Source: Agathobacter ruminis (GTDB lineage Bacteria; Bacillota; Clostridia; Lachnospirales; Lachnospiraceae). Taken from it: a DNA stretch of 64,000 nucleotides. Made by a program: the position numbers and the translations under genes. The notes below the pieces were generated by a model. That model did no database searches. It saw only the letters and a program-made list of their open reading frames with translations, and had not been told where the DNA came from. Position 1 is the stretch's first letter, and each line of letters begins with the position of its first letter. Location: contig NZ_PDYG01000135.1 of the NCBI RefSeq assembly GCF_002735305.1, positions 1 to 64,000 of the forward strand. Reading direction: 5' to 3'. Shown here one piece after another: positions 19,455-64,000 of the stretch.

Positions 19455-19540
19455 TGAATAATGTTTTGGGCAAAACATGAGAAATCATGTGACGCAAAGC
19501 TCTAGAGCCTTTTACATGGTAGTCAGTTGCAGAAATTTTG
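19455..19540 (+). promoter_or_regulatory. c-di-GMP-I (GEMM) riboswitch aptamer
   Basis: The conserved GEMM-I blocks appear in order: GGGCAAA, a hairpin ACATGA-GAAA-TCATGT with a GNRA loop, GACGCAAAGC, then GAGCC and ATGGTAGTCAGTTGCAG. The aptamer binds cyclic di-GMP, and the tetraloop docks on its receptor in the second stem. A terminator follows directly and the protease gene is downstream, so it should control that gene by transcription termination. Whether ligand turns it on or off cannot be told from sequence alone. The window also encodes a GGDEF protein. Confidence 0.88.
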
Positions 19541-27269: not shown

Positions 27270-28058
27270 TGCCCCCTATTTTGTGGGGGTCCCCCATTTG
27301 CCTTGGCACCACCCGCCGCCTACCGGACCGCACACACGGCATCCAACGGCAAGATTCTCTTCAAAGCCGTATGCCGCTTCTTTGATTGAGGCTGTTCTTT
27401 CAACTATTTGCACTTCTCCTGCACAGTCTTTTCCACGCAAACACCCGATATTCCTGATCACTTTCCTGGGCCATATAGACCGGTAGAGGAACATCATTGG
27501 GAACGCGCTTAGTAAAACAGAAGCCGCTTTACCGGCCTCTACCTACCGGTCAGCACACACGGCATTCGAAAGCAAGATTCTCTGCAAAGGCGCGCCCGCT
27601 TCTTTGATTGAGGTTGTTCTTTCAACTATTTGCACTTCTCCTGCACAGTCTTTTCCACGCAAACACCCAATATTCCTGATCACTTTCCTGGGCCATATAG
27701 ACCGGTAGAGGAACATCATTGGTAATGCGCTTAGTAAAACAGAAGCCGCTTTTGCGAAGCGCTCGATACGAGCCGCCACGGACGGCGGCGAGAGTCGATG
27801 GCGTCCCGGATGGACGCTCTGAGACGGTGTCGAGCGCTCAAAAGCGGCTTCGTTGTTTTACTTAGCAAATGGACAGTGTTCCGTACCGGTCTATATTGCG
27901 GCTTCGTGGTTTTACTTAGCAAATGGACAGTGTTCCGTACCGGTCTATATAGGACAGGAAAGCGATTTAGAGAATCTAAGCCTTGGTGCTTATCGTGTGT
28001 GGTCCGGTAGGTGGTGGGCGGTGCCAGGGCAGATGGGAAACACTCGAAAATAAAGGAC
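27270..28058. repeat. Composite repeat cluster with inverted ends
   Basis: The ends (about 27270-27340 and 27985-28055) are inverted copies of about 60 bases, sharing a CCTACCGGACC core and a GCCTTGGCACC / GCCCTGGCACC block. Inside, two direct copies of 157 bp (27374-27530 and 27596-27752, three or so mismatches) sit in a 222-bp tandem unit. Two direct copies of 52 bp (27845-27896 and 27899-27950) are related to them in inverted form. There is no transposase. Short frames over the repeats have no ribosome sites, so I call no gene in 27157-28175. Confidence 0.85.
27729..27866. other. Long cruciform with two inner hairpins
   Basis: An imperfect stem of about 40 bp joins 27729-27769 with 27827-27866 (shared core AAGCCGCTTTTG and AGCGCTCGA). 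Within it are two perfect hairpins, GCCGCC/GGCGGC (27772-27789) and GCGTCC/GGACGC (27801-27817). The layout resembles a structured RNA or a transposition end. Strand and activity are unknown. Confidence 0.75.
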
Positions 28059-49050: not shown

Positions 49051-50750
49051 CAACAATTCAACTGATTCAAATTTATATTGAGCTGTGGTCGGCCGTACTA
49101 TGTGCGGTCTTTGCCGTCAGCCTTTTTATCATCCGCAAGGAAGAACCGAAAAGTACGCGGACTTTGAGGCATATGTTTTTTCTGATGATGATTCTGCTAA
49201 TTGCGGATGTATTCGCAATCTATTATCGCGGCAATACGACAACCATTGGATGGTGGGCAACGCGTATTTCCAATTATCTGGTGTTTGCATTGTTCATTGT
49301 GATATCCATGTTTTCGGTTGCCTTTTTGCTCGAAACCATCGGAGACCACGGACGCAAAATTCCGCGCAGATGGGCATTTGTAATGGGACTTATCGGCCTC
49401 GTTTCTTTGATCCTTCTGACAATTTCACAATTTACAGATTGGTATTATTATTTTGATGAGACAAATCATTATACGCGTGGTTCGTGGTATCTGCTGTCCA
49501 ATGTGGGACCGGTTGTCATTATCTCGCTGTATTTGGCATGCATGATTTATTATCACAAAATGCTTGGAACATTTGAGACACTGGCACTGGCTTCGTATGT
49601 GGTTTTTCCGGCAATTGCGACGGTGATACAGACTTTGAATTACGGAATCGGATTTGTCAATATTGCACTGGTTCTGTCGGCACTGATGCTGTTCGGGCAG
49701 CGGATGAGTTCGCGGTCACAGGCTGTCCGCGAGGCGCGACTGCGCATTGCGCTTGAACGCGCCAAAAGAGGTCATGCCGACGATGAAATGTTGGATGAGA
49801 GAATGCGCCGCGCTTCTTTGGGAAAAGGCAATATCAAACATATTTTTATCGTGAATCCGTTTGCCGGAGTTGCAACAAAAGTGGAAGAACTGCGTGAAAT
49901 CATTGCAAAGCTGCCGGAAGATGATTATTTTGTCTTCACGACGCGCGGACCAAAATCCGAAACACAACTGATTCGCAGAGTCATGCATTATTTTGAAGGA
50001 TACAAATTGCGCATTTATTGTTGCGGTGGATCCGGAACTTTGCGCAATGTTATCGAAGGAATCGATGATCTCTCGAAAGTGGAGATTGGATTCTATCCAT
50101 GTGGCCTGTCCAACGATTTTCTGAAAGTGTTTGGAGAGGACGAAGAAAAATTTCATCATATCGAAAATCTGATTGACGGGGAAGCAATTCCGATTGACTA
50201 TATTCGCACGAATCACGGGATTGCACTGAATGCACTGTCGATTGGAAAGGACCAGCGCCTGATGGACGCATTTGAACGATATCGCGCGCTCAGCCGCATG
50301 GGAAATCGAATGCCTTATTTTATGGCGGTGGTACAGAGTATGTTCCATACCGGAATGAAGGAATACGAAATCGAAGTGGACGGCAAGACCTATACCGGAA
50401 AGCATCCGGAGGTGATATTCGGAAACGGCTGTGTAATTGCAGGTCTGTTTCATTTTGCCCCAAAAGGCAGATATCGTGATGGATATGCCTCTGTATTCAT
50501 GGCGGACAAATCCCGTTACATTGGCACCTGGCGCACAGCGCTTGCTCTGATGAGTTCGGACATGGATCGTGTATCGGAACGGGGATTTATGGGCAATGCC
50601 GAGACCTTTAAGATTCGACACAAAGATGGCAGCCCGATTGCAATTAATCTGGATGGCGAAATTGAATATGGCTATACAGAGTGCGAAGCCTCTGTTGTCC
50701 ATCAAGGATTGAATTTTATTATCCCAAAGGAGGTGGAATCTCATGGTTGA
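49047..50750 (+). CDS. 7TM receptor-like and lipid-kinase fusion
   Basis: 567 residues. Seven membrane helices fill about 1-230. A short basic link joins a diacylglycerol-kinase-like domain (about 265-560) that begins IKHIFIVNPFAG. The nucleotide loop reads CCGGSGTLRNVI where GGDGT is usual, and PCGLSNDF replaces the PxGTxNDF motif. The Asp-to-Ser change may reduce or alter kinase activity (inference). Lipid kinases of this family phosphorylate diacylglycerol or sphingoid bases. Overlaps both neighbours, so the three proteins are made together. Confidence 0.83.
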   Translation: MTTIQLIQIYIELWSAVLCAVFAVSLFIIRKEEPKSTRTLRHMFFLMMILLIADVFAIYYRGNTTTIGWWATRISNYLVFALFIVISMFSVAFLLETIGDHGRKIPRRWAFVMGLIGLVSLILLTISQFTDWYYYFDETNHYTRGSWYLLSNVGPVVIISLYLACMIYYHKMLGTFETLALASYVVFPAIATVIQTLNYGIGFVNIALVLSALMLFGQRMSSRSQAVREARLRIALERAKRGHADDEMLDERMRRASLGKGNIKHIFIVNPFAGVATKVEELREIIAKLPEDDYFVFTTRGPKSETQLIRRVMHYFEGYKLRIYCCGGSGTLRNVIEGIDDLSKVEIGFYPCGLSNDFLKVFGEDEEKFHHIENLIDGEAIPIDYIRTNHGIALNALSIGKDQRLMDAFERYRALSRMGNRMPYFMAVVQSMFHTGMKEYEIEVDGKTYTGKHPEVIFGNGCVIAGLFHFAPKGRYRDGYASVFMADKSRYIGTWRTALALMSSDMDRVSERGFMGNAETFKIRHKDGSPIAINLDGEIEYGYTECEASVVHQGLNFIIPKEVESHG

Positions 50751-52500
50751 TCAGAACTATCATGCAGGGCGCCTCATCGCAATTTTCCTTTATGTCGTGC
50801 AGGGAATATTTGTAACAGTGGCTTTGACTGTGGATCCAAAAGTGAATAACTGGATACCGGTATGCCTGCTGGTGGCGTGGTGCATCACCTTTTGGGAAAT
50901 CACGCGCATGACAAATGAAAGAGGTGTTACCTCATTTGCATTTTGTATTTTTACCTGTCTGTCATCTCTGGTGAATGCGGTGGTGCTGACATATATTTAC
51001 AAGACATTCGCCATGATCGTTGTGGTATATATGGTGCAATGCATCGTGGTCATCTGTTTTCGATTGAAACGAAGCGCGGTTGTAATCGGTCTGGCGATGA
51101 TTTTTACGCTGATGCAATTTGCTGTGGCAGAATTGCTTGGAATCATCCATTTCATTAAATGGATGGAATTTGCTGTACTGATCATCGGAATCCTGATCAG
51201 CATGTGGGCAGTCTGCGAGGTTGTTGATTTGATTCAGACGCAGGAAAAGCGTTTTGCGGAGCAGGAGCGAAGCCTCGACGATATGCTACATATTGTGGAA
51301 GTGATGTGTGACGAGGCGCGTGCGGGAACCAAGAGCAAATCGGCGTTTTTGTCAAATATGTCACATGAAATCCGCACACCGATCAATTCGATGCTCGGCA
51401 TGAACGAGATGATTATGCGCGAATGCAAGGATGAGAACATCCGCAGATATGCACAGAATATCGAAACAAGCGGTAATATGCTGTTGTCGCTCGTCAATGA
51501 TATCCTCGATTTTTCCAAAGTGGAATCGGGCAAAATGGAGCTGGTTTATGTCGAATATCATTTGAGTGCAGTCTTAAATGATCTGATTAATATGATATCG
51601 AACCGGTTACAGGAGAAGCATTTGGATTTTATCGTAGATGTCGATCCGACGACACCGGAATGCCTGATGGGCGATGAGATGCGCATCAAGCAGATCCTGA
51701 CCAATTTGCTGACAAATGCCGCCAAATATACGGATGAGGGTAGTGTGACTTTGAAGGTCTACCCGGAGATGCGTGGCAAGAGTGGAAATGTGCGTATCTG
51801 CTTTGAAGTGATTGATACAGGACGGGGAATCCGTCTGCAGGATCAGGAACATCTCTTTGATGCATTTCGTCGTGTTGATGAAAAGAAAAATCGCAATATC
51901 GAAGGAACAGGACTGGGACTGGCGATTGCGAGTGATTTTACCGCATTGATGAACGGTGTAATCGGAGTCGAGAGTGAGTACGGTCGTGGTTCTGTCTTCT
52001 ATGTGAGAATTCCGCAAGTGGTGACGGAAAAGCAGACCATTGGCAATTATTCTGAGCGAATCAAGCTCAAGAAGAATAAGAGCAAAGAATATGATGCAAT
52101 GTTTGTGGCGCCGGATGCAAAAATCCTCGTCGTGGACGATAACGAGATGAATCTGACTGTGGTTGCCTATCTGCTCAAGCATAATAAAGTGCAGATTACA
52201 AAAGCAACAGGCGGCTGGCAGGCGGTTGAACTGCTCAGACAGCAGCAGTTTGATCTGGTATTGCTCGATCATATGATGCCGGAACTGGATGGTGTGGATG
52301 CGCTCAAGATTATGAAAGCGGAGAATCTGGTGGAGCAGACTCCGGTGATTGCACTTACCGCAAATGCAATCGCAGGCTCACGGGAAAAATATCTCTCACT
52401 GGGATTTTCGGATTATCTGAGCAAACCGATTTCGGGTGCAGATTTGGAAAAGTGCTTCATGAAATGGCTGCCGCAGGACAAAATTATTCTTTCAGAATAA
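50743..52500 (+). CDS. Hybrid sensor histidine kinase
   Basis: 585 residues. Six membrane helices (about 1-165) resemble a 6TM or MASE-type sensor. A HisKA domain has the phospho-His in SNMSHEIRTPINSM (about 205), and the ATPase has NAAKYT, DTGRGI and GTGLGLAI. A C-terminal receiver carries VVDDNEMN and phospho-Asp in LLDHMMPELDG (about 512). The output domain is missing, so a partner regulator or a phosphotransfer protein is needed. ATG 50743 follows AAAGGAGG and overlaps the kinase gene by eight bases. Confidence 0.93.
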   Translation: MVDQNYHAGRLIAIFLYVVQGIFVTVALTVDPKVNNWIPVCLLVAWCITFWEITRMTNERGVTSFAFCIFTCLSSLVNAVVLTYIYKTFAMIVVVYMVQCIVVICFRLKRSAVVIGLAMIFTLMQFAVAELLGIIHFIKWMEFAVLIIGILISMWAVCEVVDLIQTQEKRFAEQERSLDDMLHIVEVMCDEARAGTKSKSAFLSNMSHEIRTPINSMLGMNEMIMRECKDENIRRYAQNIETSGNMLLSLVNDILDFSKVESGKMELVYVEYHLSAVLNDLINMISNRLQEKHLDFIVDVDPTTPECLMGDEMRIKQILTNLLTNAAKYTDEGSVTLKVYPEMRGKSGNVRICFEVIDTGRGIRLQDQEHLFDAFRRVDEKKNRNIEGTGLGLAIASDFTALMNGVIGVESEYGRGSVFYVRIPQVVTEKQTIGNYSERIKLKKNKSKEYDAMFVAPDAKILVVDDNEMNLTVVAYLLKHNKVQITKATGGWQAVELLRQQQFDLVLLDHMMPELDGVDALKIMKAENLVEQTPVIALTANAIAGSREKYLSLGFSDYLSKPISGADLEKCFMKWLPQDKIILSE

Positions 52501-52600: not shown

Positions 52601-53668
52601 ATGAGTATCAGATTCGGCATAATCGGTTTCGGATTTATGGGACATGAACATTTGTCTATGCTTCAGGAATTCGACGGAATTGATGTAGTTGCCATTTGCG
52701 ATAATGCGCCGGGCCTTTTGGATGATGTACCGGACGGAATAAAGAAATATGTGGATGCAAATGATTTGGTGAAAGATCCGGATGTGGATGTGGTCTTGAT
52801 TGTTGCAAACAATAACCAGCACTTGAAGCTGGTAAAGGCAGCAGCCGAGGCAAAGAAAGATATCATTTGCGAAAAGCCGCTTGCACTTTCTGCGGCTGAA
52901 CTGGAAGAAATGGAAAAGGTGGTAAAGGAAAACGGTGTGAAATTTACCGTGCATCAGCAACGAAGATTTGATCCGGATTTCCGCACCATCAAGCAGGTGT
53001 TTGATGACGGATCATTGGGAGATATCTACACCGTTCAGACCAAGCTATACGGCTTCAACGGAAATATGCATGACTGGCATGTTTATCCGGAACAGGGCGG
53101 TGGAATGCTTTACGACTGGGGTGTTCATTTGATCGATCAGATGCTTTGGATGATTCCGGGCAAAATAACATCCGTATTTGCGGACGTGCGCAATGTCATC
53201 AACGAAAAGGTAGATGACTATTTTAAGATTCTGCTTCGCTTTGAGAGCGGAATTACAGCAGAGATAGAGCTGGGAACTTATTTCTTAAAAGATCCAAACA
53301 GCGAGAACAAATGGTTTGAGCGCCATTGGTTCATGGGTGGAAACAAGGGAACTGCATATGTGGATGGCTTTGATCCAATCGGAAAGAAGTGCACCACCAG
53401 CCAGTTGCTTACAAATGTAGGCGGACAGCGTACTATGACCGCTGCAGGCCCGACCAGATCCTTTGGACCGCCACCGGAAGGAAGAATTGTGGTAGAGCCA
53501 ATCGAGGCTGCAAAGACAAATCACAGAATGTATTTCGAAAATTATGTGAAAGCATATCGCGGCGAAGAGGAATTCCTGGTTCAGATTCCTCAGGTAAAGC
53601 GTGTGCTCGCAGTGATGGATGCGGCAAGAGAATCTGCTCGCACAATGAAATCCGTAGATTTTGAATAA
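52601..53668 (+). CDS. Gfo/Idh/MocA oxidoreductase (possible sugar 3-dehydrogenase)
   Basis: 355 residues. An NAD-binding Rossmann fold (FGIIGFGFMGHEH) and the EKPLALS motif (about 92-98) lead to an alpha/beta domain with YDWGVHLIDQM, the catalytic D/H helix. Family members oxidise sugars at C3. In gut C-glycoside deglycosylation operons, one such enzyme makes the 3-oxo-glycoside before carbon-carbon cleavage. Here the cleaving-enzyme homologues follow, one gene away. ATG 52601 follows AAAGGAGG. It has its own terminator and may be transcribed alone. Substrate is an inference. Confidence 0.9.
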   Translation: MSIRFGIIGFGFMGHEHLSMLQEFDGIDVVAICDNAPGLLDDVPDGIKKYVDANDLVKDPDVDVVLIVANNNQHLKLVKAAAEAKKDIICEKPLALSAAELEEMEKVVKENGVKFTVHQQRRFDPDFRTIKQVFDDGSLGDIYTVQTKLYGFNGNMHDWHVYPEQGGGMLYDWGVHLIDQMLWMIPGKITSVFADVRNVINEKVDDYFKILLRFESGITAEIELGTYFLKDPNSENKWFERHWFMGGNKGTAYVDGFDPIGKKCTTSQLLTNVGGQRTMTAAGPTRSFGPPPEGRIVVEPIEAAKTNHRMYFENYVKAYRGEEEFLVQIPQVKRVLAVMDAARESARTMKSVDFE

Positions 53669-53700
53669 CATAGAAATCATAGCTGAATATGAATTGACTG

Positions 53701-53739
53701 AAAGCTCAGACTCCTGCCTGCAGGAATCTGAGCTTTTTA
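53701..53739 (+). terminator. Terminator after the oxidoreductase gene
   Basis: AAAGCTCAGA and TCTGAGCTTTTT enclose an inner TCCTG/CAGGA stem. Confidence 0.9.
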
Positions 53740-53856
53740 TGATGAACAAGAATATTTTTTGATTGTAAAAAAGTCAAAAAAGGATAACTGTGGAATATTT
53801 TTCGTGAATGAATTTTAATAAAATGGAATAGTAGAGAAGATGACGGGGGCATTTTT

Positions 53857-55200
53857 ATGGTAAACGATATGACGAAAGGGAGCCCGGTTAAGGCGATGAC
53901 ATTATTTGCAATACCGCTCTTTATCGGAACCTTGTTTCAACAAGTCTATAATATGGTCGATACGCTGGTGGTGGGAAATTTTGTCGGTTCGGTAGAACTG
54001 GGAGCAGTCGGCTCCTGCGCGCCTACGTTTAATCTCATTATTGCGCTTTTGACCGGTCTGACGGGCGGAACATCTGTGATTATGGCGCAGGCATTCGGGG
54101 CAAAAGAAGAGGGAATGGTCCGCAAAATTTTTATCTCGTCGACGATTGTCAATCTATTGGTGGGCCTGTTTTTGACGGCTGTTGGAATCTGGATTTCACA
54201 CCCACTGTTAAAATTGTTGCATACGCCTGACAAACAGCTTGGGTTTGCGACCACTTATCTGACTGTGATGTGCGCAGGGATTCTGGCAAACTGCATGTAC
54301 AATGGCATGTCGGCGGTGCTGCGGGCACTGGGAGATTCCATCACACCGCTGGTGGTACTGATTGCGGCGAGTCTTTTGAATGTGGTGCTGGATTTGATGT
54401 TTGTGATTGTTTTCGGCTGGGGTGTCGCAGGTGTGGCTTTGGCGACGGTTCTGGCACAGCTGATTTCGGCAGTCGCATGCATCGTCTATGTTTTGATCCG
54501 ACTTCCGGAACTTCGTTTTGGCATCCGGGACTGTCGTCTTGATGCACAGGTTGTAAGCGAGATTATCCGAATCGGTGTCCCGTCGGCACTTTCTTCCTGT
54601 GGCGTTTCACTCTCTGCCATGTTTATGCAACGGGCCATCAATGGTTTTGGCGATGTGGCAGTTACCGGATATACGGTCGGCAACAAAGCAGAACAGATCG
54701 GGATGTGTCTGTCCTATGCCATTGGAATGGCAACGGGAACATTCTGTGGGCAGAATATTGGCGCGAGAAAATACGACCGGGTCAAAAAGGGATTGCATAT
54801 TGGATGCTTGATCGGATTCTGCTATGCAGCAGTCGTCTCGGTGCTGGTGATTGTCTTTGCGCGTCCGTTTGTGGGAACTTTTACACAGAGTGCGGCAGTG
54901 GCGTCAGTGGCGGAGGAAGTCATCTATGTAACGATGTCGTTTGGCCCGGTATTGGGGCTGGTTTTTATTTTCCAGAATTTCCTGAAGAGTGCAGGGGATG
55001 TGGCACCGACGGTTTGGATGAGTCTGATGGAAATTATTTCCCGTGCAGTGCTTGCAGTACTTTTTGCAGCGCTTTGGGGACGATTCGGTGTCTGGTGGGC
55101 GACACCTGTGGGATGGAGCGCATCCCTGTTGCTGGGGTTCATTCGATATCGTTCAGGGACATGGAAAGACAAGGCAATCCTAAAGTCAGAATATGAATAA
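53857..55200 (+). CDS. MATE-family transporter
   Basis: 447 residues, twelve membrane helices. The N-terminus (GSPVKAMTLFAIPLFIGTLFQQVYNMVDTLVVG) is the classic MATE start. The two halves are related. MATE proteins usually export cations and aromatic compounds by Na+ or H+ antiport, so here it may remove an aglycone or bring in a glycoside (inference). ATG 53857 after GGGGGC. It is 35 bases before the DUF6379 gene and likely in its operon. Confidence 0.92.
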   Translation: MVNDMTKGSPVKAMTLFAIPLFIGTLFQQVYNMVDTLVVGNFVGSVELGAVGSCAPTFNLIIALLTGLTGGTSVIMAQAFGAKEEGMVRKIFISSTIVNLLVGLFLTAVGIWISHPLLKLLHTPDKQLGFATTYLTVMCAGILANCMYNGMSAVLRALGDSITPLVVLIAASLLNVVLDLMFVIVFGWGVAGVALATVLAQLISAVACIVYVLIRLPELRFGIRDCRLDAQVVSEIIRIGVPSALSSCGVSLSAMFMQRAINGFGDVAVTGYTVGNKAEQIGMCLSYAIGMATGTFCGQNIGARKYDRVKKGLHIGCLIGFCYAAVVSVLVIVFARPFVGTFTQSAAVASVAEEVIYVTMSFGPVLGLVFIFQNFLKSAGDVAPTVWMSLMEIISRAVLAVLFAALWGRFGVWWATPVGWSASLLLGFIRYRSGTWKDKAILKSEYE

Positions 55201-55235
55201 TAAAAATTAAATGATAAAACAAGGGAGGTATTTTT

Positions 55236-55694
55236 ATGTTTGACCAGTATTTGATTCGAAAAGACAGTTTACAAAATGTGACAGAAGATGGAAAAGTCAC
55301 CGGCTTTAAGTTTGCGGTTCGCATCGCAGATTACAGAGGATGTTTTCTCTCTCTGCACAATGGTTACTACATCAATGTGGATGGCACGGAATATCCGCGC
55401 AATTTGCAGCGATTCGAAATCAACGGCAAGGCGCCGCGTAGTTTCGAGGAAATCAAGACCGCCTGTTGGGAGCATTGGAATTATGATGATGAAGGTTGGG
55501 TTTACGTGACAAAGGAAGGCGGATTGTCGAAAGGCATGCATAAAATTGGTTTGCAGCAGTCGATTTTGGCCCAGTATGGATACATGCCTTGGGATGAGGA
55601 ATGGGTGAAGAATCCACCGGTTCCGGGCTCCGGTGCAGGCGCCGGAAAGACAGAAACCATTTGTCAATTTGATTTAGAATTACAGGAATGCTAG
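55236..55694 (+). CDS. C-glycoside deglycosidase beta-subunit-like (DUF6379)
   Basis: 152 residues, a small beta-sandwich. The pattern YLIRKDSLQNV, GFKFAVRIADYRGCFLSL and VDGTEYPRN is that of DUF6379 proteins, which pair with the TIM-barrel protein in C-glycoside deglycosidases (DgpB-type). In those enzymes the beta subunit shapes the active site but has no known catalytic metal. GGGAGGT lies upstream of ATG 55236. The alpha-subunit-like gene starts 12 bases after the stop. Family from pattern recognition; no alignment was run. Confidence 0.78.
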   Translation: MFDQYLIRKDSLQNVTEDGKVTGFKFAVRIADYRGCFLSLHNGYYINVDGTEYPRNLQRFEINGKAPRSFEEIKTACWEHWNYDDEGWVYVTKEGGLSKGMHKIGLQQSILAQYGYMPWDEEWVKNPPVPGSGAGAGKTETICQFDLELQEC

Positions 55695-55706
55695 GAGGTG
55701 GGAACT

Positions 55707-56756
55707 ATGGCAATCAAAAGAGGTGTATCACTATACAGTTATCAGCAGGAGCAGTTCTTCGGACAGATGAGCTGGAAGGATCAGATTCGGGAAGTGCGTG
55801 AGAATCTGCATACAGATGGAATCGAAATCATCGACGAGGCGGTCATCAGAGATTATCCGTTCCCAAGTGAGGAATTCTGCTTTGATTTTCGCAATACAAT
55901 GGCGCGCTATAATATGAATGCAGTGACCATGGATGTCTATCTGGATGTGCATCAATTCCGTGATCATGTGATGACCCATGCAGAGGCGGCTGAACGATTA
56001 AAGAATGATATTCGCCTTGCCGCAAAGCTTGGCTTTAAGAATGTCAGACCGCTTTGTCTGGTCCCGATTGATGTCATCGAGGCTGCACTGCCTGTTGCGG
56101 AAGAGTGCAATGTCCGTATGGGAAAAGAGATTCATGCACCGCTTCCGATTTTTAAAGGCGATAAGCCGCAGCCGACAACGGGAATGGCGGCAGCATTGGA
56201 TTTTAGAATGACAGAACAGATTTTAGAACTGGCAGATCGCACAGGCTCTAAACATGTTGGCATCGTACCGGATTTTGGTATCTTCCAATACAAGCCGTCT
56301 TCTGTGGCGATTGCATATACCAAGCGCCACACCAATACGCCGGAGGCAGTAGATTTTATTTTGAAAAATTCAGCAAATTACGGACCGGATGAAATCCATC
56401 AGATTGTCAGAGAAAAATATCCGAATCATGACCTGCCGCTCAATGCGGTTGACAGAATGGCTTTGCATGAGATGTCTGCGAATCCGGAAGATTTGAGAAA
56501 GATTATTCCTTATATTGTAAGCATGCATGGCAAATTCTATGAGATGACGGAAATCGCGGGCAAGCCTGGGCAGTATGAAGATGCCTGCATTGATTATGAA
56601 ACGCCGATGAGAATTTTGAAAGAAGAAGGATTTGACGGCTATATCAATTCCGAATATGAAGGTCAAAGAGACCAGCAGGACATGGGCTACGAAAATCTGC
56701 CGGATAGCCGGGAGCAGGTTCGCAGACACCATGAGATGCTGGCCAGATTAAGTTAA
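55707..56756 (+). CDS. C-glycoside deglycosidase alpha-subunit-like TIM barrel
   Basis: 349 residues, xylose-isomerase-like fold. Starts KRGVSLYSYQQEQ, as in DgpC-type enzymes. Likely metal ligands: E141 (GKEIHAP), D189 (VPDFGIF), H274 (SMHGKFY) and E316 or E318 (NSEYEG). H143 could act as base. The enzyme would split the sugar-aglycone bond of a 3-oxo-glycoside by elimination. ATG 55707 is used for AGGAGGT seven bases away; a GTG at 55698 lies inside that site. Its stop overlaps that of the convergent regulator (TTAA), and no terminator separates them. Confidence 0.82.
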   Translation: MAIKRGVSLYSYQQEQFFGQMSWKDQIREVRENLHTDGIEIIDEAVIRDYPFPSEEFCFDFRNTMARYNMNAVTMDVYLDVHQFRDHVMTHAEAAERLKNDIRLAAKLGFKNVRPLCLVPIDVIEAALPVAEECNVRMGKEIHAPLPIFKGDKPQPTTGMAAALDFRMTEQILELADRTGSKHVGIVPDFGIFQYKPSSVAIAYTKRHTNTPEAVDFILKNSANYGPDEIHQIVREKYPNHDLPLNAVDRMALHEMSANPEDLRKIIPYIVSMHGKFYEMTEIAGKPGQYEDACIDYETPMRILKEEGFDGYINSEYEGQRDQQDMGYENLPDSREQVRRHHEMLARLS

Positions 56757-59122
56757 TATTCTTTTGCGATGTCGAAAAAGCATACGTTGTGTGCATTGAG
56801 TGTGATGGAAAGCGTCAGCTCTGATTCGACATTCAGGAAAATAACACGTTCCTCGGGCACGCAGGTTTTGCGGAGATAATCCACATCTGCGCGCGCCGGG
56901 GTTTGTATTTTGTACATATATTCCGTTTCGTCAATGATACTTGCACGGAATCCGCCCAAATGCACATCGAGCAGGCTGCCGTGCGCCCTGTCGAGCAGAT
57001 GCCGATGTACGCGGTATTTGCCCGGAGTCAGACCGCTGAGTGTGAATTTCATCGTAATCGGCGGGACGGATTCGAAATAATGATAGACATCCAAAATCGA
57101 ATGTTTCACATTCTTTACCAGTGATTCTACATTTGCAAAATGCGCATAGTTGTAGGTGAGCACCTGATAATTCCCGTCTTTGCTCTGCGTGATGCAATAA
57201 TTTTCTCCCTGTTCAATCAAAAATTCACCCATACGATTCAAAAATGAATATGCATGATAGGCCGGTGTCGGAATCTGGTTCTTGTTGATCAGACTGATGC
57301 CATTGACCAGATAGATGCTCAGATCCTTGGATTTAAAAGAACTGTCATCGAGCATCCAGTAACCGATCATATCGGAATCGGTATGCATTTCAAGCAGGTT
57401 TTTGGTGATGAAAGTTGCCTGAAAACATGATTCGTTGATATAGGTCTGTGGAATCAGCGAGGAATTAAATTCCGTGATATACAATGGAATCTCATGTCCC
57501 ATAATGCTTTTGATACGGTCGAGAATCCACAACTGTTGTGTTCGCAATCCGCGCGCAACGGCGGACAAATCGATGTTGCCAACTTCGTCAAGCGTATATT
57601 GCAAGGTAAAGAAGTGCACGGAAATGAAGTCGGGATGGAGATCACGGTTGCGGAATTCTTCTAACTGATGGATGAGACTGTCTGAATTCATCGAGGTGAT
57701 ATGTCCCGGCCCGCCAAACTTCGAATTTGGTAGATATTTTTTGATCAGGCGATTGATTTTGTTAAAACCCTCGAAATAGTCATCGTCCGATTCGCGTGGG
57801 ATTTTCCACAATTCAAAATGCCATCGGTCCAACCATTCAGCGTCATAATGGTCGGTGACAAAAGCAAGGAATGCCTCAAACATGTTCAGAAAACGTTCTT
57901 TGTTGCTGTAGATGCGCATTGGGACATTGGCCATTGAATAATTCAGATAGTCAAAGGAATTTTTGCCCAATTCGATGAACGGCGTCAGCCCGTTTTCATA
58001 TAACAGATTGAGCACAGTTTGCACATTTGCAAAATAGTAATCATTGCGACCGGCAAGACGTGGGATCATGGTATTGCTGATCATGCCTTCGATGCGCAAA
58101 TAATCGAGATTCAGGTCCTGATTGGCTTTGAGGAGACGCTGCACGAATCCCTGAGAAAGCAGATTGTGTGCGTAACCGACATTGATCAGTTTTGTGAAAT
58201 TATGCGGCATCTGCGTCTTAAGCCCGACAAATGCGGAAATCTCTCTGGTATTAATATTCTCAACTGCCAGTGGCGTTTCGAATTCACGATTTTCGCTGAG
58301 CCATTCAGCGGTGACCGGCGGGGCAGAAGTCGCTTTTTTGCGGTATTCGCGCGGCGAGATCTGGTAGATTTCCTTGAAACGACGGTTGAAAGTCGAAATG
58401 TTCGGGAATCCGTGCTGCACGGCAATGTCAGTGATGCTTTTGCTGGTATACATGATGTCGCGCAGGGTATGCTCGATGCGAAGCTGGTTCAAATATTGAT
58501 TGAAATTCGCATGAAAATGCCGTTTGAAAAATTTGGACAGATATTGTGGTGTCAAAAACATCGAGTCGGCCAGGCTACTTAACGTGATCTGCTGACGATA
58601 GTTTTCGAGCAGGTAAGTGCGAATCTGCGAGATGCGTTCCTGGTATTTGCCACCGTCGTTTGTCGCATCGCTGACGGTGATGGAATAATCTGTCTGCAGC
58701 AGTGCGAGCAACTGATAAATCTGACCCAGCAAAGAAAGCTCATGCAAATCGGAATTGTCCAGATATTGCGATGAAATATTCATAATCAGGTTTTTGATCT
58801 GGATATAATTGCGGTTTGGCTCGAGGATGGAATCACAGAGAATCTGCGCATCAATACAATTGTTTTGCACCATAAAACCGGAATTGATTCCGAAATGAAT
58901 CATGATATTGTCGTTGCTCGGTTCAAACCGATAGGCATGGTTGCTGTGCAAAACCGTCACATTGTTTTGCGGATATTCAATGCTGTCACCGTTCTCGGAG
59001 GTGATGGTAAGCGTGCCGGATATGATATAAATCATGTCAAAAGTGTCGCTCTGGTACGGGATACTCTTTGACAGATGGTATTGTTTTAAGAATGAAATCG
59101 GGAAATCAGAATTATAATTCAT
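56753..59122 (-). CDS. AraC regulator fused to a GH39-like domain (I)
   Basis: 789 residues. A cupin-like sensor (about 1-110) and AraC double HTH (about 165-262, with LADSMFLTPQYLSKFFKRHF and AVQHGFPNISTFNRRFK) are followed by a GH39-like barrel (about 285-789). The GH39 nucleophile glutamate is kept (E551 in LYITEF), but the acid/base motif W-N-E-P reads W-K-I-P at 439-442, so hydrolysis is unlikely. I infer the domain senses a glycoside. ATG 59122 is preceded by GTGGAGAAAG and lies within the end of the next regulator. Confidence 0.9.
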   Translation of the reverse strand: MNYNSDFPISFLKQYHLSKSIPYQSDTFDMIYIISGTLTITSENGDSIEYPQNNVTVLHSNHAYRFEPSNDNIMIHFGINSGFMVQNNCIDAQILCDSILEPNRNYIQIKNLIMNISSQYLDNSDLHELSLLGQIYQLLALLQTDYSITVSDATNDGGKYQERISQIRTYLLENYRQQITLSSLADSMFLTPQYLSKFFKRHFHANFNQYLNQLRIEHTLRDIMYTSKSITDIAVQHGFPNISTFNRRFKEIYQISPREYRKKATSAPPVTAEWLSENREFETPLAVENINTREISAFVGLKTQMPHNFTKLINVGYAHNLLSQGFVQRLLKANQDLNLDYLRIEGMISNTMIPRLAGRNDYYFANVQTVLNLLYENGLTPFIELGKNSFDYLNYSMANVPMRIYSNKERFLNMFEAFLAFVTDHYDAEWLDRWHFELWKIPRESDDDYFEGFNKINRLIKKYLPNSKFGGPGHITSMNSDSLIHQLEEFRNRDLHPDFISVHFFTLQYTLDEVGNIDLSAVARGLRTQQLWILDRIKSIMGHEIPLYITEFNSSLIPQTYINESCFQATFITKNLLEMHTDSDMIGYWMLDDSSFKSKDLSIYLVNGISLINKNQIPTPAYHAYSFLNRMGEFLIEQGENYCITQSKDGNYQVLTYNYAHFANVESLVKNVKHSILDVYHYFESVPPITMKFTLSGLTPGKYRVHRHLLDRAHGSLLDVHLGGFRASIIDETEYMYKIQTPARADVDYLRKTCVPEERVIFLNVESELTLSITLNAHNVCFFDIAKEY

Positions 59123-61496
59123 AAGCTTTCTCCACTTTATAATTGTAATCAATTTGGATAAAAATCACTTCCAGCGACTGTATGGTCGGGGAAAGTGACA
59201 AAATGCCGTCTTCTTTCACCTGCAACGCCTCCAGCTCTGCATGCGGAATCGACAGCGCCTGAAGACAGTCGATATCGGTTTGCGCAAGGTCGGTCACATC
59301 GCGGATCTTGCTGAATTCATGCAGCAGATTACCGGAATGCTGATTCAGCCGGTAAGATTTGACGAGATAACGGCCCGGCACCATCTGTGTCAGGGAAATG
59401 TTGAGCTGTTTTGGTGCGAGCGGCTCAAAGACGAACTCGTCGGACTCGAACAATTCTTTACAGTGTCGGCTTGCAGTTGCTTCCAATGTCAGACCGGGGC
59501 AATGATAAAGCAACAGCTGATAAGAGAATTTGCTGCTTGAAGTCATGATCAGACCCGGATGTGTGCTGACCATTTGCGTACCCAGCTGATTGAGAAAATG
59601 AAATACATAATAGCTTGGCTTGCGGATACCCAGGTAAGTAAAAATACCGGAACCTCCAAACAACAATCCGCGTGAATCGGCATATTCGGTACTGATATCG
59701 GAAAACAGACAATATCCCAACGCATCGACTGACTCGAGGTGTGTTGTCATAAACCATGACAGGGTACATGCGAGAAAGACGGAGTCGTTTAAGAAATTGC
59801 GTTTGTTGTAAAACGGTCCGAATTCTGTCATATAGAGCGGTATGTCGCGGAAATATTTGCGCACCAGAAGCGTGCTTTCACGCGCACGGTCAACCAGGAT
59901 AGAACCGGTCGGCATGATGCCGGAATCCGGGGACAGATCCTTGTTGCCGTAGACAAAAAAGCTGATAAAGTCAAAACGGATTTGCTCTTTTTGGATATTT
60001 TTCAGGATGCCTTCAAACTCCGACAAAGGAAGGATAGACTGATATCCGGGACCACCGACTTTGCAGTCTGGGACATATTCGTGAATGATGCCTTCTATTT
60101 TTTGGTAGGTGGTCAGAAACTGCCACGGTGTCTGGCGCGAGCTGCTGCGATTGGCAAAATCATAGCAGACTTCAAAATGCCAGCGTGACACTTCGCGCAA
60201 TCCGTACCGGTTGTGACAGGTACGGATGAAAACCGGGAGCACACGCTGCAGCTTCTTATAATAACTCTGATAGTTCTCAGAGGAATTAATCAGATAATTG
60301 TCGCCCGTTCCGTGCCCGATATGACGGTAATGATTACCCAAAACAATCATGGGAATCAGATTGAGACTCAAAAACAGATCGAGCACCTGGAATATTTCTT
60401 CGAATACATAAAAGATTTGTCCGTTGATTTCATGGATGGTCATCTCATCAAACAAATCAATGATACGCGCGTACCTGAAATTGATTTCGTGTTGCAAAGA
60501 GATGAGTTGATTGCGGAACTGCGGATTTTCCATATTGGCGCAACGACCGATATTGAGAATTTGACGCCAGGAATTCGGCATCTGTCCGAAGTCGGTGCTG
60601 TAGGAAGTGGAATACTCCTGAATATTGGCAATTTGATTGGATTCGGTTTTTTGCGCCTGATGCACGGCATTGGACAAATACCGGTCAAAGTTGCTCAGTC
60701 GATTCTCTTCCGGGAAAGGCAGTATTTCGCAAGGAAGCAAACTCTCATTTCGAATCTGCTTTGCATTTTTGCCGTAAGATTTCTGCAATGCCTTGTTCAT
60801 GGACAGCGCGGAGTGAAAACCGAGCAATCCTGCGAGTGCCTCCTCCGAAAAAGAGGTATATTGCAGCAAAGGCAGGCAGAGTGTCGCTTTTTGCGCATTG
60901 ACATAATCCTTGAAGGTGCAACCGTATTTCTTTTGAAAAAAGGAAGCCAGATATTGCGGAGTCAGATGCACGGATGCCGCAGCATGATTCAGGCTGATGT
61001 TTTGCAAAAGATTTTCATGGATATATTGCAAAATCTGCTCGTTTGTCGAATTGGTCAGCTCCTGGTCCGGCATATGATCCTCGGCCGGGAAAATGCGCAT
61101 CAGATCATCGATGAACTGAAAATAGTAATGTGAGACCAGACCGGTGCGATAGCTGCGAATCAGATTCTCAAGCGAACCGATGCATTCTTTTAAACGTACA
61201 TTGGTGGGACTGTCATGAATGGATGAAAAAACAGTAAAGTGATCCAAAGATGACAGGAGCAGATAGTTGTTGAGACGGATGACCGCCAAAACGACCTGAC
61301 TGATCGGCTGTATGCTGATTTCCACACCCGGTGGCAGAAGCAGCAGATCTTCCGGCAGGAAATAGGTATTGCGGATCAGCGCTTGTCCGTCGAGCAGCAA
61401 CAGGATGGTAAAATCCTGATGGCGATAGGAGAGCGGCTTGTCTAATTTGTAGATTTCGATTTCCTGAACCGGTTTTTCCAGAGAAATAAATGACAT
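59112..61496 (-). CDS. AraC regulator fused to a GH39-like domain (II)
   Basis: 794 residues, paralogue of the downstream regulator. N-terminal sensor (about 1-145), AraC HTH (about 155-250, HLTPQYLASFFQKKYG), then the GH39-like barrel (about 290-794). The nucleophile E558 is present (LYMTEFG), while the acid/base site reads C-Y-D-F at 444-447 in place of W-N-E-P, leaving an Asp. A distinct ligand from its paralogue is possible. ATG 61496 is preceded by AAGGAG and divergent from the flavodoxin gene; the two regulators form one operon. Confidence 0.9.
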   Translation of the reverse strand: MSFISLEKPVQEIEIYKLDKPLSYRHQDFTILLLLDGQALIRNTYFLPEDLLLLPPGVEISIQPISQVVLAVIRLNNYLLLSSLDHFTVFSSIHDSPTNVRLKECIGSLENLIRSYRTGLVSHYYFQFIDDLMRIFPAEDHMPDQELTNSTNEQILQYIHENLLQNISLNHAAASVHLTPQYLASFFQKKYGCTFKDYVNAQKATLCLPLLQYTSFSEEALAGLLGFHSALSMNKALQKSYGKNAKQIRNESLLPCEILPFPEENRLSNFDRYLSNAVHQAQKTESNQIANIQEYSTSYSTDFGQMPNSWRQILNIGRCANMENPQFRNQLISLQHEINFRYARIIDLFDEMTIHEINGQIFYVFEEIFQVLDLFLSLNLIPMIVLGNHYRHIGHGTGDNYLINSSENYQSYYKKLQRVLPVFIRTCHNRYGLREVSRWHFEVCYDFANRSSSRQTPWQFLTTYQKIEGIIHEYVPDCKVGGPGYQSILPLSEFEGILKNIQKEQIRFDFISFFVYGNKDLSPDSGIMPTGSILVDRARESTLLVRKYFRDIPLYMTEFGPFYNKRNFLNDSVFLACTLSWFMTTHLESVDALGYCLFSDISTEYADSRGLLFGGSGIFTYLGIRKPSYYVFHFLNQLGTQMVSTHPGLIMTSSSKFSYQLLLYHCPGLTLEATASRHCKELFESDEFVFEPLAPKQLNISLTQMVPGRYLVKSYRLNQHSGNLLHEFSKIRDVTDLAQTDIDCLQALSIPHAELEALQVKEDGILSLSPTIQSLEVIFIQIDYNYKVEKAYEL

Positions 61497-61529
61497 GAAT
61501 AACTCCTTTCCCATTACAAGTATAGTTTG

Positions 61530-61535
61530 ATTATA
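61530..61535 (-). promoter_or_regulatory. -10 element of the regulator operon
   Basis: TATAAT on the minus strand, 33 bases before the ATG at 61496; weak -35. The rest of 61536-61710 is AT-rich with no clear operator I can name. Confidence 0.45.
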
Positions 61536-61710
61536 ACGCGTCATGTTAAAAAAATATATACAAAATTAAGATAAAGATGCAAAAATGGGAAAATAGTCTG
61601 CGTAAATAATTAAATCAAATAGAAAATGGAGCAAAACATGAAAAGTAAAAGAGATATAAATTCAGTATGATGATATTGCTAGGAAGGTTAATGGTAAGGA
61701 GGTCATATTC

Positions 61711-62673
61711 GTGAAAGTTTTAGGAATTTCATTTGGTAGATTAAATCAACGTTCCGACGTAATGGTAAAAGAAGCTTTAATTGCAGCAAAGAAGGCAGGG
61801 GCTGATGTGGAATTCATCAATACCGTCCGTTTGAATATCGGACATTGTCGCGCCTGCGACTATTGCAGCAGATGCAAAGATAACGGTGACACGGAAATTC
61901 ACTGCTGTTTCAAAGATGATTATCATATTTTGGAAGAAGCAGTTCTGGATGCAGACGGCATCATCATTGGTGCTCCGGTATATGCAGTTGGTATTGTAGG
62001 ACAGTTTAAGAATTTCGTCGATCGCTTCGGACCGTCACATGATCGTGCGGCTTTGATCGAAGAAAACAAGAAGCGCGAAAAAGAAGGCAAGCCGCTTTTG
62101 GATGAGAGATATTTCAAGGATCGCTACACCGGATATATTTCAGTCGGCGGAGCCGGCACACACAATTGGGTGGCCCTTGGATTGCCGATGCTTCATTTGA
62201 ACGATTTCTCACAGTGCATGAAGTGTGTGGGACATATCGATGCTTATGACCAGGGTCGTACAGGCCATCCGGTATTGAACCGTGAATTGATGGAAACCTG
62301 TGCACAGCTTGGTAGCGCAGTTGCGGAAGCAATCGGAAAGCCATACGAAGAAGTGGATACATGGGTAGGTGCAGACGGCGTTTGCCCTGTTTGTCATAAT
62401 CCGCTTCTGTCAATCAACGGAACAACAGATGTGGAGTGTCCGATTTGCGGAATCTGGGGCAAGCTTTCCGTAGAAGGAGACAAGGTTAAGGTAACCTTCT
62501 CCGAAGAGGAAAAGGCGCGTGCGCGCAATACCAAGATTGGTATTTACGAGCATTATCACGAGATCCAGAATATGATTCCGGTCTGCGTGCCGAAGCTTCA
62601 GGATAATAAAGACTTTATCGACGCGGAGATGGAGAAATACAAAAACTTCGATGAGTATATCAAAACGGTATAA
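61711..62673 (+). CDS. Flavodoxin-like protein with Cys motifs
   Basis: 320 residues. An NADPH-FMN reductase or flavodoxin-like fold (about 1-210) has the early motif GISFGRLNQRSD and a cysteine block CRACDYCSRC (about 46-55) where many iron-sulfur flavoproteins place their cluster. A zinc-ribbon-like pair follows (C225, C228, C243, C246: CPVC, CPIC), then a charged tail of 70 residues. The protein could carry electrons to the flavoprotein next door. GTG 61711 follows AAGGAGG; the next gene begins 25 bases after the stop. Confidence 0.82.
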   Translation: MKVLGISFGRLNQRSDVMVKEALIAAKKAGADVEFINTVRLNIGHCRACDYCSRCKDNGDTEIHCCFKDDYHILEEAVLDADGIIIGAPVYAVGIVGQFKNFVDRFGPSHDRAALIEENKKREKEGKPLLDERYFKDRYTGYISVGGAGTHNWVALGLPMLHLNDFSQCMKCVGHIDAYDQGRTGHPVLNRELMETCAQLGSAVAEAIGKPYEEVDTWVGADGVCPVCHNPLLSINGTTDVECPICGIWGKLSVEGDKVKVTFSEEEKARARNTKIGIYEHYHEIQNMIPVCVPKLQDNKDFIDAEMEKYKNFDEYIKTV

Positions 62674-62698
62674 TTCGGAGCTCGAAGGAGGATACAGT

Positions 62699-64000
62699 AT
62701 GGAAAACTTAAAGACACAGATTGTGGTCATCGCCGGAGGACCATCAGGTTTGTCTGCCGCATGTCAGGCTGCTGAGGACGGCGCAGATGTCATTGTAATC
62801 GAAAAGGCAAATGTGGCAGGAGGCGCAGCCAATATGGGAATGGGACCGCTTGGAATCGGTACCCGCTACCAGCAGCAGCAGATGATTGATGTGACCGTTG
62901 AGAAGGCATTCAATATGTTTATGGATTACACCCACTATAATGTGGATGCCAGACTGGTAAAAAGATATTTCGAACAGTCGGCAGAGACCATTGAATGGCT
63001 CGAGGAAAAAGGTGTGGAATTCGAAGGCGCATTCCGCTATTTCCCACAGTCCGAGGCAACATGGCATATCGTCAAGACCGGTAACAAAATCGGCCCTCGC
63101 GCAGCCGGTCATATGAATAAAGCGCTTTTGAAAGATGCGCAGGATAGAGGCGTCAATGTTCTTTTGGAGACAAAGGGACTTGAGATTATCAAGGATGACG
63201 AAGGCAAGGTTTGCGGCGTACGCGCACAGAACGCACAGGGTGAAGAATTTGTCATCGAATGTAAAGCTGCAATTATCTGTACCGGAGGAGCCGGCGCAAA
63301 TAAGCAGTTTATCCAGGATGAGATTGGATTGGAACAGGGACGTGAAATTTACAATTTCGCAATTCCGGGAATCATGGGTGACGGATTAAAGATGGCATGG
63401 GCTGCAGGCGCAGATCATCTGCCGGTACGCATCGAGCAGGCGGCTGACCTCGGTGGAGGTGAGGAAGCTTCCGGAAATGTCATCAATGTGATGAAACAGC
63501 CGAATCTGATTGTCAACAAATTCGGAAAGCGTATCATGAACGAGGAATTTTCACAGAATACCACCTACCTCGGCAATGTGGCAAATCATCAAAAAGACAA
63601 GACAATTTATGCTATTTGTGATACTGCAACCGCAAAGGGTTATGTAAAGAATGGTGTAGATGTTACCTCACTTGTTACACCTGATCCGGATGTTTCGGGA
63701 TTCTTTGATGATTTTGATGAGTTGGTTGCAAACGGATCAAAGAATTTCTTCAAGGCCGACACCATCGAAGAACTTGCGGGAATGCTTGGCATCGATGCGG
63801 AGACCCTTGAGGAGACCGTTGATGAATACAATGATTTCTGCGATGGCAGAGATGAAGAATTCTTCAAGAATTATCGCTATTTGAAGAAGCTGCGCAAGGG
63901 ACCGTTCTATGCGGCAGCAATTCATCCGGGCGGATACGGCACGGTTGGAGGCATTCGAATCAACGAAAACTGCGAATGCTGCGACAAGGACTTCATGCCG
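62699..64000 (+). CDS. FAD-dependent fumarate-reductase-type flavoprotein (partial)
   Basis: At least 434 residues; it runs off the right edge. The N-terminus has a Rossmann motif (VIAGGPSGLSAACQAA) with an Ala in the first usual Gly position. The flavin contacts are EKANVAGGAANMG, IICTGGAGANKQF and AIHPGGYGTVGGIRIN. This is the fumarate reductase/urocanate reductase flavoprotein type, which reduces activated carbon-carbon double bonds. The domain that binds FMN or heme is not seen at the N-terminus. ATG 62699 follows GAAGGAGG. Likely the partner of the flavodoxin; role in aglycone reduction is inferred. Confidence 0.85.
   Translation, partial: MENLKTQIVVIAGGPSGLSAACQAAEDGADVIVIEKANVAGGAANMGMGPLGIGTRYQQQQMIDVTVEKAFNMFMDYTHYNVDARLVKRYFEQSAETIEWLEEKGVEFEGAFRYFPQSEATWHIVKTGNKIGPRAAGHMNKALLKDAQDRGVNVLLETKGLEIIKDDEGKVCGVRAQNAQGEEFVIECKAAIICTGGAGANKQFIQDEIGLEQGREIYNFAIPGIMGDGLKMAWAAGADHLPVRIEQAADLGGGEEASGNVINVMKQPNLIVNKFGKRIMNEEFSQNTTYLGNVANHQKDKTIYAICDTATAKGYVKNGVDVTSLVTPDPDVSGFFDDFDELVANGSKNFFKADTIEELAGMLGIDAETLEETVDEYNDFCDGRDEEFFKNYRYLKKLRKGPFYAAAIHPGGYGTVGGIRINENCECCDKDFMP

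Follow-up and report, generated by a model that had tools for sequence, protein, structure and literature searches.

A two-part C-glycoside deglycosidase-type enzyme of a separate clade, encoded in a putative glycoside catabolism locus of Agathobacter ruminis

We analysed a group of eight genes at the end of a 64,000-nucleotide stretch of Agathobacter ruminis DNA (assembly GCF_002735305.1, contig NZ_PDYG01000135.1, positions 1 to 64,000; hereafter the window), which an earlier note had read as a glycoside catabolism locus built around an enzyme pair of the C-glycoside deglycosidase (CGD) type. This window lies on contig C134, which is 99,048 b long; the genome has 134 contigs and a size of 2.86 Mb. 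The eight genes, as delimited by the list of open reading frames (ORFs) and by Pfam and NCBIfam scans, are given below in window coordinates with the segments of interest. All genes named in the earlier note were found at their positions (ORF list, Pfam).

52601..53668, + strand: GFO1, Gfo/Idh/MocA dehydrogenase, predicted glycoside 3-oxidase, DgpA2-like (Pfam; PDB 9m37)
53857..55200, + strand: MATE family transporter (Pfam MatE, 196.5 bits; TIGR00797 above its cut-off)
55236..55694, + strand: CGDB, CGD beta subunit (PF19906, formerly DUF6379; Pfam, AlphaFold model)
55566..55661, + strand: clade-specific loop of CGDB, residues 111-142, containing YGYMPWDEEWVKNPPVPGSGAGAGKT, between the last two beta strands (motif counts, model)
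55707..56756, + strand: CGDA, CGD alpha subunit, xylose-isomerase-like TIM barrel, N-terminus MAIKRGVSLYSYQ (PDB 8qvc, 4e-43; model)
56127..56660, + strand: active-site span of CGDA, with E141, H143, D189, H274, K276, E316 and E318 (alignments, matching to the enzyme AgCGD2)
56553..56570, + strand: clade-specific insertion IAGKPG of CGDA, residues 283-288, seven residues past metal ligand K276 (alignments)
56753..59122, - strand: REG1, AraC-type regulator with a GH39-like domain (Pfam HTH_18, Glyco_hydro_39)
59112..61544, - strand: REG2, second AraC + GH39-like regulator, overlapping REG1 (Pfam)
61711..62673, + strand: FLAV, FMN_red/flavodoxin-fold flavoprotein with N-terminal and C-terminal Cys clusters (PF03358, 52.1 bits)
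62699..64000 in the window, gene end at contig position 64147, + strand: FRD, fumarate-reductase-like FAD protein (FAD_binding_2, 162.8 bits at full length)

GGAGG-containing ribosome sites lie ahead of GFO1, CGDB, CGDA, FLAV and FRD, and AAAGGAGG precedes the GFO1 start ATG at 52601. The minus-strand REG1/REG2 pair lies between the two plus-strand gene runs, and linked genes on the same strand continue beyond the window end at 64000, to about C134:75750.

CGDB scored 130.1 bits against Pfam PF19906, for a cut-off of 27.6, and none of 14 control genomes gave a match, which rules out chance or an artefact. All eight PDB sequences matched by a CGDB profile at E<=0.01 are subunits of CGD complexes. 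A single-sequence search with CGDA likewise returned eight PDB sequences at E<=0.001, all of them CGD complex subunits according to their entry titles; the CGDA profile (11 rows) matched the same eight and, weakly, three other chains of sugar isomerase type. AlphaFold models were obtained with pLDDT (predicted local distance difference test) values of 89.2 for CGDB and 94.4 for CGDA. The CGDA model matched the D. aerius CGD with Z 38.9 and a root-mean-square deviation of 2.3 over 320 residues, and 13 CGD entries scored between Z 31.3 and 38.9, against 25.6 for the best non-CGD entry. For the CGDB model, the match to DfgB had Z 17.7 and a deviation of 2.5 over 142 residues, with 12 CGD entries at Z 14.3-17.7 and the next best at 6.0. 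A generic isomerase was rejected on these structure matches of both models. The two genes are adjacent, and separate searches with alpha and with beta matched the same 7 of 397 same-family genomes.

The residues given as metal ligands in the earlier note (E141, D189, H274 and E316/E318) were correct: they are invariant in alignments of 31 and 11 rows, the window included, as are H143 and K276, absent from its list. By motif and spacing, E141, H143, D189, H274, K276, E316 and E318 correspond to E147, H149, D179, H269, K271, E305 and E307 of AgCGD2. In that enzyme, E147, D179, H269, K271 and E305 bind the metal, H149 is the base and Glu307 is second-shell, and alanine exchange of the counterparts of these residues lowered activity in PuCGD and MiCGD (PMC8563793). 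We thus find a PF19906 beta subunit, a TIM-barrel alpha subunit encoded next to it, and a metal site of E/D/H/K/E type with a base His and a second-shell Glu. With the PDB and fold matches and the DgpA-type dehydrogenase described below, this bears out the family proposed for the pair, and we conclude that the locus, on its sequence, encodes a two-part CGD-type enzyme at family level. At that level the core interpretation of the earlier note holds, and the locus is real and was correctly read; its overall interpretation is partly supported.

The best match of CGDA was the D. aerius C-glucosyl deglycosidase (PDB 8qvc, 8qvd, 8umc; 151 bits, 4e-43 for 8qvc), which has the same two-subunit make-up and active site. 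Its alpha subunit is 35% identical to CGDA in the structural alignment, lacks the IAGKPG insertion and falls outside the clade described below; its beta subunit (125 residues, 27.8 bits) stops aligning at about residue 118-120 of CGDB. PuCGD, the DgpB-DgpC complex of strain PUE (PDB 7bvr) that works with DgpA, is alike in its alpha/beta organisation, its Gfo/Idh partner and its active-site residues; its alpha subunit, 34% identical to CGDA over 303 positions, belongs to a different clade. EuCGD, the DfgA-DfgB complex of Eubacterium cellulosolvens (PDB 7bvs) accompanied by DfgE, has the beta fold closest to that of CGDB (TM 0.80, Z 17.7) and an alpha subunit of a different clade from CGDA. The pairs P581a DgpB1/C1 (9m3b) and W974-1 DgpB2/C2 (9m3a) also lie in clades other than that of the window pair; no relevant paper on strains P581a and W974-1 was found in the open-access literature.

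To place CGDA, an alpha-subunit tree of 87 rows, six of them from PDB, was computed by a "quick" method with SH-aLRT (Shimodaira-Hasegawa-like approximate likelihood-ratio test) support and no bootstrap; AgCGD2, MiCGD and other soil enzymes were left out, two PDB rows were incomplete, and for 8qrz and 8qvc the program issued a warning about meeting long branches. CGDA fell within a clade of 41 rows, window included (SH-aLRT 99), which contains none of the six solved enzymes. The earlier note had counted a position of the two proteins outside the deglycosidase clades as a refutation; the outcome is intermediate, as they are inside the family, in a clade of their own without any of the six solved alpha subunits. 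Grouping with a characterised CGD, not seen for any of the six PDB enzymes in the tree, marks a subgroup and does not define the family.

Two features mark this clade. In alpha, IxGxPG is inserted after H274-x-K276; in the beta subunit, a long loop of the form DEEWxxxPPxP precedes the last beta strand. Both were present in 27 of 27 clade rows and in none of 4 paralogues. The alpha insertion is a gap in all five PDB alignments printed. The beta motif was found in 41 of the 42 CGDB ORFs at least 50% identical to the window protein, the exception being L061 (50%), and in none of the 33 below. In the CGDB model the loop lies between strands E100-110 and E143-149, with a helix (120-125) between them, and in the CGDA model four helices (199-251) occupy the place of the PuCGD/AgCGD2 lid domain. 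According to PMC8563793, this lid domain is present in the alpha subunits of PuCGD and AgCGD2 and absent from that of EuCGD, whereas an insertion between beta7 and beta8, where CGDB has its loop, is found in EuCGD beta and not in PuCGD or AgCGD2. Judging from single-chain models, the clade seems to combine both ways of closing the pocket, lid helices from alpha and a loop from beta.

Conservation within the clade was unequal. Of the 40 loci fetched, 37 had at least 95% coverage of both subunits and three were left out; beta was closer than alpha to the window protein in 37 of 37, with medians of 79% and 69%. The 40 loci had been collected with beta as query, which may bias towards beta, and the family search was repeated with alpha. 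This second search led back to those 7 of 397 genomes and to the loci already known, with one tandem alpha in addition; beta identity exceeded alpha identity in all 7 non-self pairs, one of them over a partial alpha match. The order was reversed in the clade of a second CGD copy of this genome (locus L072), where alpha was above beta in 3 of 3 pairs (L102, L108, L110); in two more distant pairs below 40% identity (L106, L109), beta was again above alpha. Since the beta subunit helps form the aglycone side of the pocket (PMC8563793) and exceeds alpha in conservation, the sequences hint that the clade serves one fixed aglycone type.

The clade is rare: of 397 genomes sampled from the same family it occurs in 7, counting the own one, and of 398 from the phylum in the own one alone; PF19906 in general occurs in 25 of 299 genomes. 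Members come from gut Lachnospiraceae, including Catenibacillus scindens (L004), from Mediterraneibacter glycyrrhizinilyticus (L028), from Clostridium, Bacillus and Neobacillus, and from metagenome-assembled genomes (MAGs) named as spirochaetes and one actinobacterium. We found no characterised member, and regard this as a clade with distinct loops and a larger linked gene set within a known kind of system. Searches of an open-access library yielded no account of this gene set and none under the name DUF6379.

Several arrangements were seen on the way. The Catenibacillus scindens contig (L004:9854-12733) carries one clade beta gene followed by two tandem clade alpha genes. In a Subtercola (actinobacterial) MAG, L041:8118-12712, a GMC oxidoreductase gene directly precedes the clade pair and a Gfo/Idh gene directly follows it. 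The second pair of the own genome (L072, G000:C2:9500-29400, pair at 9905-11363; beta 35% and alpha 31% identical to the window pair) belongs to a different clade and is adjoined by a xylose-isomerase (XI)-like TIM barrel and an FMN_red protein. CGDB domains also occur within frames of 472-539 aa (G110:C69:15983, G110:C69:34467, G067:C6:25471, G067:C6:30721), which may be beta-alpha fusions, as in the 435-aa CGD of Microbacterium testaceum.

GFO1 has the Gfo/Idh/MocA fold and is a close relative of DgpA: its nearest solved relative by far is P581a DgpA2 (PDB 9m37, 9m39), with 441 bits and 2.4e-131 against 9m37, entitled "P581a DgpA2 and isoorientin complex", and 189 bits for the next. Linkage was counted at a distance of 20 kb or less in 11 genomes, ten with CGDB and one (G292) without. 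Of the 12 non-self places with a GFO1 relative, 9 were near CGDB (0.55 expected, P 6e-11, a P value that, like those below, ignores kinship and contig breaks). By analogy with DgpA, GFO1 is predicted to be a glycoside 3-oxidase.

The second gene run continues past the window, on the same strand as FRD, with the following genes (contig coordinates; ORFs past the window and their scan):

64148-65296: GFO5, second Gfo/Idh protein
65488-66870 and 66882-67781: two ATP-binding cassette (ABC) permeases
67786-68412: 208-aa protein, 31-41% to a group with one DUF624 member
68469-70037: solute-binding protein with DUF3502
70105-71433: carboxylesterase
71700-72989: thiolase
73000-73440: zf-ChsH2 protein
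73528-75750: GH3-type protein (BglX model, 666.9 bits for a cut-off of 666)

Gene neighbourhoods were compared in 41 loci, namely the 40 fetched with beta plus the window; many contigs were short, and the gene caller lost some genes to overlapping frames. Two permease groups akin to those past the window occurred in 20 and 18 loci and a solute-binding protein in 15, the window's own copies, which lie past its end, being excluded. Counting the window, MATE and GFO1 each occurred in 8 of the 41, FLAV in 5 and FRD in 4. The earlier note had placed MATE in the known gene set; such a transporter is not named in the accounts of dgpABC and dfgABCDE consulted; a MATE gene directly adjoins a CGD pair in four other loci (L003, L042, L113, L106). 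It is a possible exporter of aglycone or glycoside.

FRD relatives lay near CGDB in 5 of 12 non-self places (0.63 expected, P 1.6e-4), which supports a physical linkage of this fumarate-reductase-like gene to CGD pairs. The best NCBIfam model for FRD was the vinylphenol reductase VprA (NF053717), at 248.5 bits on the protein truncated by the window end; this is below the cut-off of 600, as is the 281 bits of a full-length relative in L102, and FRD is not assigned to VprA. FLAV relatives were found in CGD loci L003, L017, L024 and L025. Aglycone reduction by the FLAV/FRD flavoprotein pair, as the earlier note had suggested, is unproven. Directly before FLAV, L025:3743-8273 and L017:13162-17721 carry a Nuo/GltD-like electron-transfer flavoprotein and a second gene, which is a NuoF-like iron-sulphur protein in L025, the one of the two that was scanned.

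The thiolase gene is followed by a small zf-ChsH2 protein gene, the arrangement of two-component thiolases, whose partners we take to be PhlC/PhlB, BbsB/BbsA and Ltp2/ChsH2. This thiolase matched 25 PDB sequences at E<=0.001, with 110 bits at best, which is only distant similarity, and no PhlA-like third gene was noticed beside it, no search aimed at PhlA having been made. In L008, some 3 kb separate similar thiolase and zf-ChsH2 genes (85% and 80% identical) from a clade CGD pair accompanied by the ABC genes. At L101:10158-12996 and L105:10119-12985 the two genes (83-86% and 75-81% identical) adjoin a phosphotransacetylase-like gene, whose best models scored below their cut-offs; no CGD was found within the stretch read at either locus. 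The anaerobic phloroglucinol pathway of C. scatologenes was rejected as the home of the thiolase because that pathway uses a BKACE-type lyase and a thiolase for acetoacetyl-CoA (CoA, coenzyme A; PMC10470551). The phloretin/2,4-diacetylphloroglucinol hydrolase family PF18089 had no match in the own genome; control genomes were without a match too, so absence is not shown.

Both regulators combine AraC and GH39-like parts and are related to AryK, yet far under its cut-off (REG1, 185 bits for a cut-off of 850); REG2 is a paralogue of REG1 at 25% identity. When REG1 was aligned with the GH39 enzyme 1px8, the NEP motif of the enzyme, whose Glu we take to be the GH39 catalytic acid/base, fell on KIP, while ITE, presumably the nucleophile side, was kept. 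The REG1 domain therefore lacks the acid/base Glu of a GH39 beta-xylosidase in this alignment, and because this position is lost, it probably binds sugar rather than hydrolysing it.

A tRNA scan of the window was negative, and the region under study had no Rfam match. Promoter and terminator consensus scans were uninformative (27 against 20.7 expected, and 13 against 10.0), and a comparison of three intergenic stretches for common operator-like repeats gave a single 12-of-14 match. A hairpin with a T run at about 53701-53738 is visible by eye and absent from the list of the terminator scan. Elsewhere in the window, Rfam recognised a c-di-GMP-I riboswitch (19459-19534) and a TwoAYGGAY RNA (27719-27876). 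Directly upstream, at 46852-52500, ORF reading indicates GGDEF-type, lipid-kinase-like and hybrid histidine-kinase genes, seemingly outside the locus.

We consider it probable that the locus serves to break down a phenolic glycoside of plants, which is most likely a C-glycoside, by import, C3 oxidation and beta-elimination of the aglycone. Uptake of the glycoside would fall to the ABC importer of DUF3502 type whose genes lie shortly beyond the window end, and GFO1 would oxidise its sugar at C3 with a bound nicotinamide, as its kinship with DgpA suggests. The CGDA-CGDB complex would hold the 3-keto-glycoside at the subunit interface, where a divalent metal on E141, D189, H274, K276 and E316 would polarise the keto-sugar and H143, with E318, would act as the base at C2. 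The aglycone would then depart by beta-elimination, releasing 2-hydroxy-3-keto-glucal; this mechanism is that of PuCGD and AgCGD2, extended here by analogy. In homologues, C3 oxidation by DgpA and metal-dependent beta-elimination give the aglycone and 2-hydroxy-3-keto-glucal (PMC8563793, PMC10628242, PMC12101588). GFO5 may return the hydride to the 3-keto sugar, an aglycone derivative may be reduced by FRD and FLAV and may be cleaved by the thiolase/zf-ChsH2 pair, MATE may export the phenolic product, and REG1 and REG2 would sense the sugar or the glycoside. As for the substrate, Catenibacillus scindens deglycosylates vitexin, isovitexin, orientin, homoorientin and mangiferin, and also puerarin (PMC11170127); it holds several other CGD pairs besides its clade member. 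Because DgpA2 was crystallised with isoorientin and Catenibacillus scindens deglycosylates such compounds, the leading candidates, by analogy and only as a hint, are 6- or 8-C-glucosyl flavones or xanthones.

Several observations weigh against this interpretation. The three non-CGD isomerase-type chains did match the CGDA profile, though at 47.8 bits or less, against at least 182.7 for the CGDs. G292, the only other sampled genome of the genus, had no match to CGDB, GFO1 or FRD at the thresholds used. Of the 19 non-self places of the thiolase in genomes whose CGDB positions are known, just 3 were within 20 kb of CGDB (0.99 expected, P 0.07), and the thiolase occurred in 1 of the 40 beta-fetched loci, so that its linkage to CGD pairs is weak; at 80% identity or more it was near CGDB in 2 of 3 places (P 0.008), a subset picked after the fact. 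A count of 3 in 12 (P 0.024) came from a partial genome set and was discarded in favour of all 19 places. Finally, PuCGE also cleaves 3-keto O-glucosides (PMC10628242), and therefore family membership does not fix C- over O-linkage, while the run also contains a GH3 beta-glucosidase-like gene, whose presence would suit O-glucosides or C-glycosides that are glucosylated. The substrate, its linkage and the accessory roles given here are putative.

The low thiolase count, the presence of FRD near CGDB in only 5 of 12 places, the scarcity of FLAV and FRD among the 41 loci and the minus-strand regulators splitting the two runs would all be expected if the flavoprotein, thiolase and esterase genes were unrelated neighbours of a unit made of just the dehydrogenase and the alpha/beta pair, perhaps with the transporter. 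This is a serious possibility, although we lean against it: the FRD count exceeds expectation, and gene content is kept together in two loci. In L003, a close relative with beta 99% identical, the order GFO1-MATE-CGDB-CGDA-REG1-REG2-FLAV-FRD-GFO5 is kept. No single locus is clearer than L102, which comes from another genus. One strand there carries an XI-like gene, GFO5 (88%), a CGD pair of the L072 clade, GFO1 (55%), FRD (68%), a nitroreductase, a 134-aa ORF, a major facilitator superfamily transporter, two NADH/ferredoxin-type electron-transfer proteins, the thiolase (86%) and a zf-ChsH2 protein (79%); GFO5, the CGD pair, GFO1, FRD, the thiolase and the zf-ChsH2 gene lie within 15 kb. Alternatively, the pair may mainly be a beta-eliminase of O-linked, or mixed, 3-keto-glycosides, C-glycosides not being its natural substrate. 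PuCGE cleaves C- as well as O-glucosides in their 3-keto form, and the majority of plant glycosides have an O-linkage (PMC10628242); the clade loops differ from the solved CGDs aligned, and GH3 and esterase genes lie downstream in the same run. We nevertheless hold this to be unlikely, if well short of negligible: simple hydrolases would handle O-glycosides, leaving less need for a conserved C3-oxidation route, isoorientin, with which the closest solved dehydrogenase was crystallised, is a C-glycoside, and the CGD base H143 and E318 are retained. That the TIM barrel is an ordinary sugar isomerase or epimerase, or a single-chain 3-keto-glycoside lyase with an incidental beta protein, is very improbable, for although Pfam names it AP_endonuc_2 only and epimerases and the Alistipes 3-keto-glucoside 1,2-lyase share its fold, all 13 CGD entries outscore the best other fold, CGDB adjoins it whether loci are collected with alpha or with beta, and its single-sequence search matches CGD complexes alone.

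The catabolic reading set out above can be carried further. One regulated island in anaerobic gut bacteria could dismantle a C-glycosylated phenolic completely, by ABC import, C3 oxidation, beta-elimination by a hyper-conserved one-aglycone CGD clade, flavin-driven reduction of the aglycone, and CoA-dependent thiolytic C-C cleavage of the aglycone or a ring product by the thiolase/zf-ChsH2 pair, yielding acetyl-CoA for energy conservation. The phosphotransacetylase-like genes beside the thiolase relatives in L101 and L105 fit such a scheme; the 3 of 19 count lowers its odds, and we regard it as doubtful.

Ordinary glycosidases fail on the C-glycosides present in food and herbal medicine, and it is still to be settled which gut bacteria release which aglycone. 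Given the spread of the clade, a single substrate assignment would account for many genomes. The linked FRD gene and, less surely, the thiolase offer a testable lead on the fate of the aglycone; if the island did catabolise its substrate completely, the bacterium would feed on both aglycone and sugar.

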